In this document: positions 8,933 through 14,267 of the stretch, piece by piece
Position numbering within the stretch: the stretch's first letter is position 1
Layout of the letters: every line of letters begins with the position of its first letter
Origin: Bartonella tribocorum
GTDB lineage: Bacteria; Pseudomonadota; Alphaproteobacteria; Rhizobiales; Rhizobiaceae
Length of the DNA: 64,000 nucleotides
Reading direction: 5' to 3'
Assembly (NCBI RefSeq): GCF_002777915.1
Contig: NZ_NJGE01000004.1
Span: 1-64,000, forward strand
Translations under genes and position numbers: made by a program
Notes under the pieces: model-generated
Told to the model about the DNA's origin: nothing
Seen by the model: the letters and a program-made list of their open reading frames with translations, nothing else
Database searches by the model: none

Positions 8933-9008
8933 GCCGCATTAGCTCAGTTGGTAGAGCACATCATTCGTAATGATGGGGTCGCTGGTTCGAATCCGGCATG
9001 CGGCACCA
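8933..9008 (+). tRNA. tRNA-Thr (anticodon CGT)
   Basis: A 76-base cloverleaf. The acceptor GCCGCAT pairs with ATGCGGC, and the D-arm contains AGCTCAGTTGGTAGAGC. The anticodon stem CATCA/TGATG encloses the loop TTCGTAA, giving anticodon CGT, which reads ACG threonine codons. The T-arm is GCTGG-TTCGAAT-CCGGC. The 3' CCA is encoded (9006-9008). All stems pair. Confidence 0.96.
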
Positions 9009-10348
9009 TTTTGTGTGATTAATACACTGAAATACATATATTCCACCCTTTGCAATTTATACAATTTCACCTAATTTGTTCTTATTTTTCCATATTTTTC
9101 TTTTGAGTAAAAATCTAGAGTTTCTTTTTTCCACCTCAAAACTCTATCTCACTTGTATGACTCTACAAAGTCCCACTTCGAAGACTCCAAGCTCGAATCG
9201 TTGTTATGGATGCACTAAAAAACTGTACATATTCACGAGTTGTGACATATCTATCGCTATGATTTAAAGAACATCTCATTTTCATATTATATAAATGGAC
9301 GAAGAAGCAGGAAGGAAAAAAATCTCCCTAACTTCAAGCTGCTTTTATCAAAATCTTTTGTATCCTTTGTGTTATTACACCTAAAAAATTTCAAAAGCTT
9401 GATTGATTTATTTAAGATGTTGCTGAAAACGTAGCCAATATAACATTAGAATTAGATAGAGCAATATCCTTGCCCCAAACGGCCCAACAAAATGCTTCAT
9501 ATGAAGAAAACGAAGGCATTATTCATATGAGTGAATACATAACTAAGGCTATTGTTCAATTGTTCAAATTTATTACAGTACAATATTTTTTAAAGGACTA
9601 TCAAATATCATTATTCTATATATTGAATATGCTCCTCTAATATATCGTTTCCTTTGAAAACAGACGGTAAGAGAAGGATAAAATATCCATTCTGTTCTTA
9701 TATAAACATATTTTATTTATAAAAAATTTATGTAACAATCTACTTAAAATCCTTAATCAATTTATTTTTTTAATAAAATTAAGCAACTAGAGAAAAAACA
9801 AATAATAATTAATTTAACTATAGCTTTTTTGTTAAATGTGTATAATACATTACGTATTGCACATGCTGATTCTAAGATAAATATCAGATATATTGTTAAA
9901 TATATTAATGTGTCTTTTTGTTTTTTATGGAAAATTTCTATGGTGTAATTTATGGATTATAATTAAAAAATTAATATGTTTTATTTCATTAGTTGTTATA
10001 TCTCTTATTTTTTATTGAATAAGTTCTCTTCTTTATCAGTATTATTTGAGTTTTTCAAGTAAAGTATTCAAATAATTTTGAATCAAACGTAAGAGTTTGT
10101 GAGTGAAATTTATCTGATTATAAATTGAATTTATTAAAAGTTATTGTCTTTAGACGAAGATCAATTGCTGCAAAATGAATAGTTGTTAGCATAATCTTTG
10201 TTCCAAAAAACGATATGGATCTCAAAAAGAACCCATTATGGATGTTTTTGATCTTTAGATTCTTTCACTGTTCTGTTCTTTAAAATGAGTAGATGTAAGT
10301 TTTCAATTCATATCCTGCTTTGTGTGGGTTTTTTATAGGACAAGGATA
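9009..10348. other. Long gap after tRNA with one gene remnant
   Basis: No intact gene. On the + strand around 9415-9640 a frame of about 65 codons stays open without a plausible start (phrases ANITLELDRAISLPQTAQQ and NEGIIHMSEYITKAI). It looks like the end of a decayed gene of unknown family. The last 300 bases precede the lysis cassette and should carry its promoter. Confidence 0.35.
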
Positions 10349-11011
10349 ATGCGAAAAATATCAAAAGAAGGGCTTGCACTGATTAAGCAATGGGAGGGCT
10401 TACGTTTAAAAGCCTATGAAGATTCTGGTGGAATATGGACTATTGGTTATGGGCATACAAGTGCAGCTGGTGCCCCGAGTGTTCATAAAGACATGCAAAT
10501 TACGGAAAAAGAAGCTGAAAAAATCCTTTGTCAGGACTTGAGAGAGTGTGAAGCCGTTGTTGTAAAAGCTGTTATAGTTCCTTTAAGTGACGAACAATTC
10601 GCGGCATTAGTATCATTTTGCTATAACGTAGGAATAACAGCTTTTTGTAAATCTACACTTTTAAAAAAGCTCAATAAAGGTGAATATGAAGTAGTACCAA
10701 CTGAATTGCAAAAATGGACAAGAGTTGGAGGGAAACGTATTCAAGGTCTTGTCAATCGTCGAGCCGCCGAAGCAGGATTATGGGCGAAAGGAGCTCATGT
10801 TGCCCCCAATTATCATGTAGTGGAAGCAGAAGGTGTGACAGGCATTGGCAAAATAGAAGCTCTTGCACCAATCATAGGCTCTTTTTCAGGGCTTGGGGGG
10901 CTTTTTGCAGGAAATGGTCCTGTCCAATGGGCCTTAGCAGGCATTATGGTCTTAGCTGCTGGTACAGCTATGGTATATATTGCTAAACGTTTTCAGGAGC
11001 ACCGCCTATGA
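10349..11011 (+). CDS. Phage-type endolysin, GH24 lysozyme with C-terminal membrane helix
   Basis: A 220-residue muramidase of glycoside hydrolase family 24. The catalytic triad spacing E-8-D-5-T is intact: Glu16, Asp25 and Thr31, with TIGYGHT following. The lysozyme domain covers about residues 5-150. A linker rich in Gly and Ala follows, then a hydrophobic helix at about 192-212 ending in a basic tail, which could anchor the enzyme or act as a holin. The ATG at 10349 follows AAGGA; an in-frame ATG nine codons upstream lacks such a site. It heads a lysis cassette and overlaps the i-spanin ATG by four bases. No capsid or tail genes are in the window. Confidence 0.92.
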   Translation: MRKISKEGLALIKQWEGLRLKAYEDSGGIWTIGYGHTSAAGAPSVHKDMQITEKEAEKILCQDLRECEAVVVKAVIVPLSDEQFAALVSFCYNVGITAFCKSTLLKKLNKGEYEVVPTELQKWTRVGGKRIQGLVNRRAAEAGLWAKGAHVAPNYHVVEAEGVTGIGKIEALAPIIGSFSGLGGLFAGNGPVQWALAGIMVLAAGTAMVYIAKRFQEHRL

Positions 11012-11235
11012 TCTTATGGATAAAAAAATATCTGACGACATCGTCAGCAATCATAGCAGCTTTTTTTATAGCTTTAGTAAAAGCCTTTTTTCTTGGTAAA
11101 AGAGTTGAGAAGCAAAAACAAACAAAGGAAGCTTTTAATATAGCAAAAACACGCCTTGAGGTAGAAAATGAAATTAACAAGAAAAGTAATGCTGATGTGC
11201 GCAATAAGCTTTCTAACTGGTTGCGCGACGAATGA
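11008..11235 (+). CDS. Putative i-spanin (Rz-like inner-membrane lysis protein)
   Basis: A 75-residue protein with one N-terminal membrane helix (about residues 11-29, AIIAAFFIALVKAFFLG) followed by a charged, helical, coiled-coil-like periplasmic region. This is the layout of phage Rz/i-spanins. The start overlaps the endolysin stop (ATGA), and a lipoprotein gene starts inside it in another frame. Position and topology support the call more than sequence similarity does. Confidence 0.7.
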   Translation: MILWIKKYLTTSSAIIAAFFIALVKAFFLGKRVEKQKQTKEAFNIAKTRLEVENEINKKSNADVRNKLSNWLRDE

Positions 11236-11383
11236 ACGAACCTCTTGTATTGGATGGCTGCCAATTTATTTGAATCGACAAGACATCAATGTCATTAGCC
11301 CCAATTTGGCAAGAGATATTCTAAAACATAATGAACAAGGTGAGCGTCTATGTGGGTGGAAATATACACGAAAAGTGAAATGA
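11168..11383 (+). CDS. Putative o-spanin (Rz1-like outer-membrane lipoprotein)
   Basis: A 71-residue lipoprotein with a short basic N-terminus and lipobox LTGC, the lipidated Cys at residue 19. It begins within the i-spanin gene in a different frame, the embedded/overlapping arrangement typical of Rz/Rz1 pairs, and extends 148 bases beyond it. With the i-spanin it would bridge the periplasm and fuse the membranes in the last lysis step. Confidence 0.7.
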   Translation: MKLTRKVMLMCAISFLTGCATNERTSCIGWLPIYLNRQDINVISPNLARDILKHNEQGERLCGWKYTRKVK

Positions 11384-12801
11384 TAAAAATCCAATTCCTT
11401 TGAAACATTAATCAGTGAAAAATTTTAAAGAGGTAAATATATTCAAATTAGAAGTAGAAGCACTTAAAGGATTAAAACACTTTATGTGCTCTCTTAATTT
11501 AATTGGCGTGACTTAATTAATTTAGAGTGACAGGGAGGTGCTTGGCTTGAAATAAAAAGATTGAACTGGTTATATTCGCATAAAGTAATTGAGTGTATCA
11601 ATATATTCTAAGAGCTATCTCTGTTCTCTGATCAAAGCAAAAGAAAATATGTGCTATGCATTGCGCTGTTATTGCCATTCAAAGATCTGATGATATAAAA
11701 GTTGTCTTCAGCAAAAATGATATCTAGAGACCTATCCATGCTTAAGAAGACCAGTCCACAGAACTGCACAGGGTTGTTGGCTTTTTGTACGATTTGTAAA
11801 TAATATTGTTTTAGCTTTTTTACCCTCATACTCCTGAAGATAAACTAAATCCTTTCGCACTGTGTCTACTTTTTTTGTTAAAGGAATGCACACATTGCGT
11901 GTGATATTGGTTGTTAATTTTGCTCAACGTCAAGCAATCCCTTGCCTATTTATATATGATGAGGAAAGCATCCTGTTATAAATGTCCATAAGAATGCTGC
12001 AAAAATTGATATCAGCAAAGCTTCTTTTATCACAAAGGGAAAAGAAGTTCTCTTGCTTGTAACTGGGGAAACCATGTAGATTTGTCTTGATGCGGCCGAA
12101 AAACTCCCAAAATATGAAATTATACTAACCGTTGTCAGTGTACCAACAATTCGACCTTTAGATGATACATCTGTATTAAAACTCTGCAAATCTCACCAAT
12201 CTGTCATTTGTTTGTGAAGAGCATAGCATTCAGGGGGCTTGGAGAAACAATTGCAAAATACTTATGGAATATAGCATTGCATGCAAATTTGTATTACTAG
12301 AAATACCAAATGAGCCAATCTGTAATGGAAAGCCAATGGAATTGTTTTGGCAAGTTATGAAATAAGTCAAGAAGGTATAACGAAAACTGTATTGGCAATG
12401 ACATAAGATACAAAAAATATTAAATTGCATTTTAATATGATCGCCAGTTCAAAACTATCATAAATCATTGATGAAAATAAAAAAATGGCTGAAGAGCATT
12501 AAATCGCGTTATCTTTCTTTCTAGGAAAGCATTTTATTTAAAAGATACTACACTGTATTTTTCATTGGTTTAAAATCCATTCCATAAAAGACAATATCAT
12601 ATTCATATAATATAATTATTCATTAGAATAAGCATAAATACTATAGATATTTATAGAATATATCTCCATTTTTATTATTAATTTATATATTACTGATAAT
12701 ACATATTGATTTTTAAATAAAATTATTTATATACCATATGTATTAATTGCAATTAAAAAACATAATTAATTTATTATACTTTTATAAATAGGAGAGAAAA
12801 A
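11384..12801. other. Long gap with decayed minus-strand genes
   Basis: No intact gene. On the minus strand 11950-12189 reads a hydrophobic 79-codon frame (phrases GRIVGTLTTVSIISYFGSF and ALLISIFAAFLWTF) that resembles the end of a multi-pass membrane transporter. Broken frames continue upstream to about 12430. Around 11780-11900 the minus strand also reads TKKVDTVRKDLVYLQEYE, weakly like the helix-turn-helix of a DeoR-type regulator. These look like remnants of a lost transporter/regulator locus; the families are not established. Confidence 0.35.
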
Positions 12802-12888
12802 ATGCTCACAGCATTATTTATATCTATTTTTTCTATATCAACAGTTGTTATGCCTTTACTGGCAGCGCTTGTTCCTTTTTATCCTTAG
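12802..12888 (+). CDS. Possible 28-residue hydrophobic peptide
   Basis: ATG at 12802 is preceded by AGGAGAG at ideal spacing. The 28 codons encode almost only hydrophobic residues (LFISIFSISTVVMPLLAAL), long enough for one membrane helix. An AT-rich hairpin with wobble pairs (12912-12934) followed by T-rich sequence lies just downstream and could end a short transcript. The type I toxin class has this shape, but no antisense RNA was demonstrated. It could equally be a chance frame. Confidence 0.4.
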   Translation: MLTALFISIFSISTVVMPLLAALVPFYP

Positions 12889-13103
12889 AATAAGCTTTTA
12901 AAAAAGTGAATAAAAGATGTCTTCAGTGTCTTTTTTGCTTTAATTGTTATTAAGATTTTTTCTTTATTGGACATTTTTTATCATTTTATGGAGAAGAATT
13001 TTGACCTTTTTTAACGTTAACTGTCAACATATCTGTAAAATATACAATTATGTTCTTCTATAAAAAGATTTTATTTTTCTAAAAGCAGTATAAAACACAA
13101 TTT
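12889..13103. other. Intergenic region, 3' side of lldD
   Basis: AT-rich, with no gene. It contains the weak hairpin at 12912-12934 described with the upstream peptide. Confidence 0.4.
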
Positions 13104-14267
13104 TCATTGTTTAAAGACATCTTTATTCACTAAACTTTCGCGTGTAATCTCTTTGAGTGTCTGAGCACCAGTCAGTGTCATAGCGACCCGCATTTCATTG
13201 GCAAAAAGATCAAGCAGGTGAGCAACACCTTTCTCACCTGCTGCTGCAAGAGCATAAACAAAAGCGCGACCAATCATCACAGCATCCGCGCCTTGTGCGA
13301 TCATGCGTACAACATCAAGTCCAGAACGCACACCAGAATCCACTAAAATAGTCAAATGATCCTTTACAGCTTCGGCAATTGCTGGCAACGCACGCGCTGT
13401 TGATAAAACACCATCGAGTTGGCGCCCGCCATGATTGGAAACAACAATACCATCAGCACCTAACTGTACTGCTTCTCGTGCATCTTCTGGATCAAGAATA
13501 CCTTTTAGAATCATTTTTCCCTTCCAGAAATCTCGGATCCATTGTAAATCATGCCAACCAATTGATGGATCAAAATTTGCCCCAAGCCAACCAACATAAT
13601 CATCCAATGCAATCTGCTTTTTGAGATAGGTGGAAACATTTCCAAGATCATGGGGGCGCCCCATAATACCAACGTTCCAAGCCCAATGAGGATGCGTAAA
13701 AGCTTGTAAAAAACGACGTAATCCAGCATAAGGACCAGACATCCCCGAATGTGCATCACGATAACGTGTACCTGGAACGGGCATATCAACAGTAAAAACC
13801 AACGTGCGTACACCAGATGCCCAAGCCCGCTCTAATGAATCACGCATAAAACCACGATCTTTGAGAACGTAAAGCTGAAACCAAAATTTCCCCCCAACCG
13901 CTTCCTGCACTTCTGCAATAGGGCACACTGAAACAGAAGATAGAGTAAAAGGAATCCCTTTTGCTGCTGCGGCACGCGCGGCTTGTACTTCACCACGGCG
14001 TGCATACATTCCCGTTAACCCAACAGGTGCAATAACAATCGGTAAATCAAGTCTCTGCTCAAAAAGCTTGATTGAAAGATCAACTGTACCAACTTGCCTT
14101 AGAATCCTTTGACGCAGTGCAAGAGCTTGAAGATCTGTATAATTACGCCGCAGTGTTTCTTCAGCATAAGCCCCACCATCAATATAGTGAAAAAGGAAAG
14201 GAGGAAGCCGACGCTTTGCTGCCTTCCGATAATCAAATGTTGAAGCAATAATCATTGATGGCACCAT
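13104..14267 (-). CDS. lldD: L-lactate dehydrogenase (FMN-dependent, LldD)
   Basis: A 387-residue FMN-dependent alpha-hydroxy-acid dehydrogenase that oxidises L-lactate to pyruvate at the inner membrane and feeds electrons to quinone. The active-site block [11 protein letters not shown] and the barrel strand [15 protein letters not shown] (flavin phosphate site) are intact, as is the N-terminal [13 protein letters not shown]. The length matches E. coli LldD. An ATG four codons in (14255) matches the usual MII..DYR start, but AGGA fits the upstream ATG better. It stands alone on the minus strand. Confidence 0.92.

Follow-up and report, generated by a model that had tools for sequence, protein, structure and literature searches.

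The window, a 64,000-nucleotide stretch from a Bartonella assembly (2.19 Mb, 98 contigs), contains three consecutive lysis genes of phage type on its forward strand. The first (10349 to 11011) encodes an endolysin of 220 amino acids in the phage lysozyme family GH24, which matched PF00959 (Phage_lysozyme) with an E value of 6.6e-48 (162.6 bits against a cut-off of 22.3) as well as phrog_7 and NF058676. The catalytic motif of GH24 is a Glu-8-Asp-5-Thr triad, and residues E16, D25, and T31 of the endolysin have this spacing. Nearest to it among solved structures were chains named Lysozyme (9kbq, 2.2e-33; 6et6, 5.9e-31). The endolysin stop codon overlaps the start codon of the second gene in an ATGA (11008 to 11011), and this gene (11008 to 11235) encodes a 75-residue, Rz-like i-spanin (phrog_1026, E value of 2e-12) with an N-terminal transmembrane helix. 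The third gene (11168 to 11383) encodes a 71-residue, Rz1-like o-spanin lipoprotein (phrog_1275, E value of 6.2e-18) with a lipobox, LTGC, recognized by eye. It starts 160 bases past the i-spanin start, hence in a different frame, and overlaps the i-spanin gene by 68 bases. An inner-membrane protein with one transmembrane helix, paired with an overlapping, out-of-frame lipobox lipoprotein, is the arrangement of two-component spanins of the Rz/Rz1 type. The lysozyme triad, transmembrane helix, lipobox, ATGA coupling, and overlapping spanin pair listed in a first-pass annotation of this DNA were all recovered in profile matches, reading frames, and hydropathy. A chance set of open reading frames was rejected on the profile matches and on the presence of an endolysin orthologue in 23 further genomes, 17 of which have both spanins intact. 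At the level of predicted function, we regard the endolysin, i-spanin, and o-spanin as confirmed, intact phage-type lysis genes.

The set had also been called complete, which holds for these three genes and not for a holin. Among Pfam and PHROG profiles, no holin family passed its cut-off for any of the three cassette proteins, the best holin-type score being that of the i-spanin against PF05106 (E value of 0.051, 14.4 bits, cut-off of 23.8), and the holin gene of a canonical holin-endolysin-spanin cassette is not represented among them. Nor does the endolysin have the N-terminal signal-anchor-release helix of SAR endolysins, as its most hydrophobic segment is C-terminal: the Kyte-Doolittle maximum (19-residue average) falls at residue 194, and a transmembrane helix is predicted at residues 194 to 212 (10928 to 10984, forward strand). 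An AlphaFold model, in which this C-terminal fold was predicted for the window endolysin alone (mean pLDDT, 74.9), has a catalytic domain extending to about residue 149, a stretch with pLDDT under 50 (residues 152 to 188) that includes a short helix at 173 to 185, and a long helix at 191 to 219 in a block of pLDDT 63 to 77. The C-terminal columns are conserved over 43 aligned Bartonella endolysins, with G190, Q193, and A197 invariant, so the helix region is not peculiar to the orphan endolysin. Holin-independent lysis has been reported for the endolysin M4Lys (PMC8943055). As described in that source, the Enc34 and M4Lys endolysins resemble the window endolysin in having an N-terminal catalytic domain, a proximal helix, and a C-terminal transmembrane helix, but their catalytic domain is PHA02564, another family than Phage_lysozyme. 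Judging from hydropathy and the structure model, the C-terminal helix of the window endolysin might perhaps act in place of a holin.

The cassette lies between a tRNA-Thr gene (anticodon CGT; 8933 to 9008, forward strand, found by ARAGORN) and lldD (13104 to 14267), recognized by its match to the FMN-dependent dehydrogenase family, and its lysis genes are the only three in this interval that are recognizably intact. Next to the tRNA, which borders the remnant on its left, positions 9043 to 9424 have 70% DNA identity over 400 nt to the tRNA end of a larger prophage in another Bartonella genome (G065). Short remnants of three phage genes were detected by tblastn at E values of 2e-4 to 5e-4, which apply to the 3 kb searched, with dozens of ORFs tried and unrelated background beginning at 0.008: a piece of the prophage gene at the tRNA end (9337 to 9431, reverse strand; YqaJ-type recombinase/exonuclease family; query, the G065 prophage ORF at 732154; E value of 5e-4), residues 401 to 441 only of a tail baseplate-hub (gpD-type) gene (9416 to 9544, forward strand; 2e-4; 42% over 43 amino acids; query, PF05954 and phrog_52), and residues 140 to 165 of a 385-residue tyrosine-type phage integrase (11846 to 11920, reverse strand; 4e-4; 62% over 26 amino acids; query, PF00589 and phrog_1). 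The DNA of the last is 77% identical over 75 nt to the G065 prophage integrase. With pieces of a tail gene and an integrase on either side, the earlier description of a cassette standing alone among gene remnants proved apt. Immediately before lldD is an ancestral spacer common to genomes without the insertion (12568 to 13103; 70.6% by blastn to the lldD-side spacer of G024 [L188] and G023 [L191]), and in these two genomes the site is empty, tRNA-Thr and lldD being about 1.15 kb apart. Elsewhere in the window, a pair of small ORFs at 323 to 1000, one Gp49-like (PF05973) and one with a helix-turn-helix (PF13744), resembles a toxin-antitoxin system; on inspection by eye, the first ORF appears to shift frame close to its end.

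The G065 prophage, of the prophage I type, has one end at this tRNA-Thr, its attachment site, and the last 16 nt of the tRNA are repeated exactly beside its integrase. A corresponding attR copy of the tRNA 3′ end was not found in the window at up to 4 mismatches in 16 nt or 8 in 24 nt. Larger prophage I copies (L163, L179, L057, and L076), which we named by their resemblance to the description in PMC2697382, have gpD before and the integrase after the lysis genes, at midpoint distances from the endolysin of 1.0 to 4.1 kb and 1.4 to 4.9 kb, respectively (about 1.7 and 1.6 kb in compact copies). The window preserves the order gpD, endolysin, Rz, Rz1, integrase at the tRNA-Thr. It is thus like prophage I, as far as that type is described in PMC2697382, in gene order, in endolysin family, and in the tRNA-Thr site used in G065, and unlike it in two respects: tail genes and further phage genes persist in the larger copies, whereas this site retains only lysis genes and debris, and the window endolysin falls in a separate clade. 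Given the remnants that flank the cassette and the G065 prophage at the same tRNA, the cassette is most simply read as the lysis end of a phage attached at tRNA-Thr. A plasmid origin was rejected, a single 53-base match having been returned from a plasmid collection. Among phage records, 2960 matched the endolysin, none of them over at least 80% of the query, and the 15 listed were 47 to 50% identical over the catalytic part.

The remnants are clearer in orthologous loci than in the window. Integrase fragments in those loci are 37 to 84% identical and mostly stop near residue 165; among the 16 nearest genomes, they end at residues 153 to 166 in 13 (the window and 12 of its 15 nearest orthologous loci), and gpD fragments start at residues 401 to 410 in 6 (the window and five orthologous loci). 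Eight more distant orthologous loci have fewer remnants or other limits, with a gpD piece (300 to 430) in L105, a longer integrase piece (36 to 223) in L107, and neither in the remaining six, which limits the shared-breakpoint evidence to the 16 nearest genomes. These comparisons lend good support to an origin from a prophage I-like phage that was inserted between tRNA-Thr(CGT) and lldD and whose lysis genes, at its integrase end, are now the cassette. From the shared breakpoints, loss of most of the phage before the 16 nearest species separated likewise appears well supported.

We asked how the cassette is distributed by searching 71 Bartonella genomes. The endolysin family has at least one copy in 70 of them, the exception being a genome that is 86% complete, and an orthologue of the window's copy (at least 77% identity) was found in 24, the window's genome included. 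The 47 genomes without a copy at this level include some that are close by lldD identity (G040, G052, and G054). Within the examined flank, lldD or the permease was present in 14 of 17 named loci at 78% identity or above (L010 to L026). Copies in a prophage I context are 67 to 75% identical to the window's, and the window's own genome has three more endolysins with open frames at 69 to 71%. In a tree of 124 distinct full-length proteins, from which duplicates, sequences containing stops or X, named doubles of orphan loci, and loci L174, L176, L178, L180, L181, and L183 had been excluded, the 24 orthologues form a single clade with support of 100/100 (bootstrap not fully settled), and no prophage copy falls inside it. 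Copies with a YopJ-like gene (PF03421) nearby are intermixed with prophage I copies in the tree, where context labels follow an automatic rule with distances taken between midpoints and the class "other" is mixed, including BaGTA-adjacent and insect-type copies. YopJ-family acetyltransferase genes adjoin the endolysin lying beyond BaGTA in L006 (2680 to 4678, assigned by PF03421) and, by tblastn, in L156 (7766 to 8743) and L162 (11038 to 11967). In two genomes (G022 C2:1815225-1816884 and G027 C1:2193154-2195037), the part encoding the endolysin C-terminal helix recurs several times in tandem behind an open-frame endolysin.

The endolysin frame is open over its 220 codons in all 24 orthologues, with a dN of 0.087, a dS of 0.548, and a dN/dS of 0.159 (276 pairs; Nei-Gojobori method, own script). 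Outside the overlap, dN/dS was 0.098 for the o-spanin and 0.324 for the i-spanin (18 intact rows of 24). In 13 of 14 loci with both genes (L017, which carries a stop, was left out), dN/dS was 0.161 for the endolysin and 0.131 for lldD, and dS of the two genes was correlated (r = 0.89), both results coming from 78 pairs that are not independent. Compared with 15 near orthologues, the endolysin DNA has a mean identity of 0.90 without gaps; the flanks reach 0.72 upstream (14 measured) and 0.59 downstream with many gap columns, these means including L100, whose flanks are unlike (0.30 and 0.31). Purifying selection on the endolysin is thus indicated by a frame open in 24 of 24 orthologues and a dN/dS of 0.16, while the flanks have decayed. 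Decay also reaches the cassette in some lineages. Of the 24 orthologues, 18 have an intact spanin pair; it is broken in L097, L098, L100, L101, L110, and L111, by eye through a homopolymer length change in the i-spanin of L097, L100, and L111. The E-D-T triad is kept in 20 of 24 and changed in L098 (D to Y), L110 (D to A), and L111 and L112 (both T to A); a triad change occurs in 1 of 100 non-orphan endolysins. Altogether, 7 of 24 orthologues have one or both of these defects and 17 have neither, and the pair L098 and L101 has a dN/dS of 0.13 despite broken spanins in both. The claim that selection has kept the cassette is therefore upheld by an endolysin dN/dS (0.16) set beside that of lldD (0.13) and has to be qualified for the seven carriers with decay. 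Vertical inheritance in place, with purifying selection on the endolysin and spanins and decay in some lineages, appears well supported by these alignments. Lysis genes under purifying selection within a defective prophage are one mark of a domesticated module of the DLP12 type, and the cassette shows this pattern.

A terminator-like hairpin followed by a T-run lies about 20 nt before the endolysin start (10314 to 10334, forward strand). A scan for such a stem and T-run within 70 nt of the start codon found it in 97 of 110 endolysin copies, compared with 39 of 1120 control ORFs and 7 of 550 shuffles; the 110 copies are the tree rows (of 124) left after removal of rows not matching from residue 1, lying near a locus end, or containing N. 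By context, it is present in 22/22 YopJ-side, 17/17 tail-fiber-side, 29/30 prophage I, 19/24 orphan, and 10/17 other copies, mostly 17 to 24 nt from the start where the distance was printed (37 nt in L109). In most stand-alone and prophage copies it thus comes immediately ahead of the ribosome-binding site. Among seven BaGTA-adjacent copies tested, six gave no match (L132 to L134 and L136 to L138) and L135 did; L138 has, by eye, a longer-looped form. Over 64 distinct non-orphan rows, the helix with the best pairing was selected, and 97% of its cells are paired (30 to 63% when slid by 2 or 3 columns). One of its pairs occurs as A-T 37, G-C 13, and G-T 12 and another as C-G 36, T-G 14, and T-A 11, and these are, as aligned, compensatory changes in the stem of the non-orphan copies. 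The gap between hairpin and start is too short for an ordinary promoter, and the hairpin may be a stop that a transcript from upstream must pass for the lysis genes to be expressed, possibly as an antitermination gate. An eLife article of 2025 reportedly names antitermination, in its title, as what connects BaGTA loci that differ in phage origin. In a search for a BaGTA-type promoter, leader profiles compared with the BaGTA-ROR stretch of G023 gave no similarity to the BaGTA operon leader. The matches in G023 were its lysis copy, relatives nearby, and a weak match at 1627530 to 1627660, which looks like a dispersed repeat and has no lysis gene behind it.

The first-pass annotation had proposed that the cassette could serve release of the Bartonella gene transfer agent (BaGTA), pointing to lysis genes unlinked from the GTA cluster in other alphaproteobacteria. 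As a marker of BaGTA, we used homologues of the cluster protein BAnh110860, which were found in 66 of 71 genomes; PF05136 was rejected as a marker, being found in only 45 of 71 and appearing to mark prophage portals. In 27 of the 66, a full-length endolysin follows the marker on its strand, at most 14 kb downstream; 8 of these 27 have a marker of just some 50% identity, 4 to 13 kb from the endolysin. Another 20 lack an adjacent copy and have an endolysin 48 to 175 kb upstream on the opposite strand. The remaining 19, in which the marker's contig carries no full-length endolysin, were set aside, leaving 47 that were judged. The orphan cassette is missing from 36 of these 47. Such a lack of linkage does not hold in Bartonella, as shown by the 27 genomes and by B. 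australis (G006), in which an endolysin stands on the same strand behind the BaGTA tail-fiber gene and small ORFs, with BaGTA gene coordinates that match those in Table 2 of PMC3610622. A small ORF after this endolysin has a lipobox by eye and no Pfam or PHROG family match. Two carriers of the cassette (G053 and G070) have a BaGTA-adjacent endolysin as well. In the window's genome, the best marker match is on contig C33, on which no endolysin match was found, and the cassette is on C4; Terminase_6N had no match in this genome. The single endolysin match in G001 is at the distant YopJ-side place. In B. grahamii, the sole copy among the 80 loci examined is prophage-type (71%; L076, strain ATCC 700132, which is not the strain studied for GTA). 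Broken endolysin relics lie 2 to 4 kb from the BaGTA marker in G024 (C1:15940-16461) and G049 (C55:13564-13812), in both of which a distant copy is present, as if the adjacent endolysin had been lost and replaced. G023 (1,931,047 bp), which we take to be B. henselae Houston-1, has no orphan orthologue, an empty site, and an endolysin beside BaGTA. Absence of the cassette from GTA-producing strains had been set beforehand as evidence against a GTA role, and G023, on its presumed name, would be such a strain. GTA-mediated transfer has been shown in B. henselae (PMC9662315).

The name of one profile bears on the same question. NF058676 is an NCBIfam equivalog called "gene transfer agent endolysin BgtA," and the window endolysin exceeds its cut-off (397 bits against 315) over nearly its full length. 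However, 9 of 10 non-orphan Bartonella copies also exceed it (tested on L163, L162, L006 to L008, L153, L157, L170, L192, and L196), with 413 bits for the prophage I endolysin and 306 bits, under the cut-off, for an insect-type copy. Since the model also scores prophage copies and so merges them with GTA copies, the name BgtA neither discriminates nor settles function. Furthermore, the window endolysin differs from BgtA in its location away from the BaGTA cluster and in its distribution, with orthologues in 24 of 71 genomes compared with 66 of 71 for the BaGTA marker.

Three other explanations for the cassette can be weighed against these results. Use of the cassette in BaGTA release would be in keeping with its conservation under selection, its score for BgtA, the naming of antitermination for BaGTA in an article title, and the nine carriers that have no BaGTA-adjacent copy though the contig shows a distant one, and BaGTA has been described as released "possibly through lysozyme-related proteins" (PMC6899734). 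Yet the 47 genomes without the cassette hold another endolysin of the family in 46 cases and the BaGTA marker in 42, G023 among them pairs BaGTA with an adjacent endolysin, and the 66 marker genomes include 27 with an adjacent copy (two carriers among them) and 20 with one farther upstream. The BgtA model does not discriminate, the hairpin is missing from six of the seven BaGTA-adjacent copies tested, and the leaders do not resemble that of the BaGTA operon in G023. We consider this explanation unlikely; a general role in BaGTA release is not supported by the genome comparison, and a contributing role in carrier species is possible. Selection might instead act through phages, either by recombination with resident prophage copies or because the cassette serves an induced resident prophage I. 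In several genomes (L174, L176, L179 with L180, and L181), prophage I genes are indeed found at most 20 kb from the cassette, and copies in that context are 67 to 75% identical. However, the orphan copies form one clade without prophage members and their dS tracks that of lldD, which makes large-scale gene conversion unlikely, and we find selection through phages distinctly unlikely.

The cassette could also be a functionless leftover that survives by chance or was acquired recently, as the debris of the flanking phage genes, the decay in 7 of 24 orthologues, and the other endolysin copies in the window's genome might suggest. A dN/dS of 0.159 at a mean dS of 0.55, 15 gapless endolysin alignments beside flanks that have lost alignment quality, and constraint persisting between L098 and L101 though the spanins are broken in both speak against it. 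A recent neutral remnant was rejected on the dN/dS and flank comparisons, and a neutral leftover is, in our judgment, very unlikely. Overall, the best explanation, to which we assign a probability of roughly 0.75, is a retained prophage I-like lysis module that has been domesticated by its host. Prophage origin and retention of the cassette are very probable on the gene order and substitution patterns, and its use in real lysis or envelope turnover is somewhat favored.

A comparable case is the defective prophage DLP12 of E. coli K-12, whose lysis module has been described as domesticated, with a measured effect on vesicles (PMC7918800). Both are lysis operons that have outlived their phage and include an endolysin and two spanins; DLP12 differs in its measured effect and in having a holin, none being found among the Bartonella cassette proteins. 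The cassette is, in these terms, an old prophage lysis module that selection maintains in some members of the genus, comparable in kind to that of DLP12 (PMC7918800), and we infer that it is kept by the host as a domesticated lysis or envelope module. In such a module, the hairpin ahead of the endolysin start would halt transcripts arriving from upstream, and only read-through or antitermination would carry them into the lysis genes. Once expressed, the endolysin would cut peptidoglycan, perhaps with help from its C-terminal helix where a holin would otherwise act, and the spanin pair would open the outer membrane. The trigger may be an antiterminator supplied by a co-resident phage or by BaGTA, or else a signal for envelope maintenance like that described for DLP12 of E. 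coli. We can only speculate that the cassette is a domesticated switch gated by antitermination, an additional device in carriers for release of BaGTA particles or vesicles, drawn from a second phage source besides BaGTA; this extension is doubtful.

The locus offers a comparative case of phage genes kept by a host, in which a lysis module is under selection while integrase and tail genes have become debris. Since Bartonella genomes contain several related endolysins, the annotation "gene transfer agent endolysin BgtA" is no guide to function, and automatic naming by NF058676 will label prophage and orphan copies as GTA endolysins. A deletion test would be needed before any one cassette is credited with GTA release. 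The hairpin that precedes most Bartonella endolysin genes represents a testable control point for lysis across the genus.
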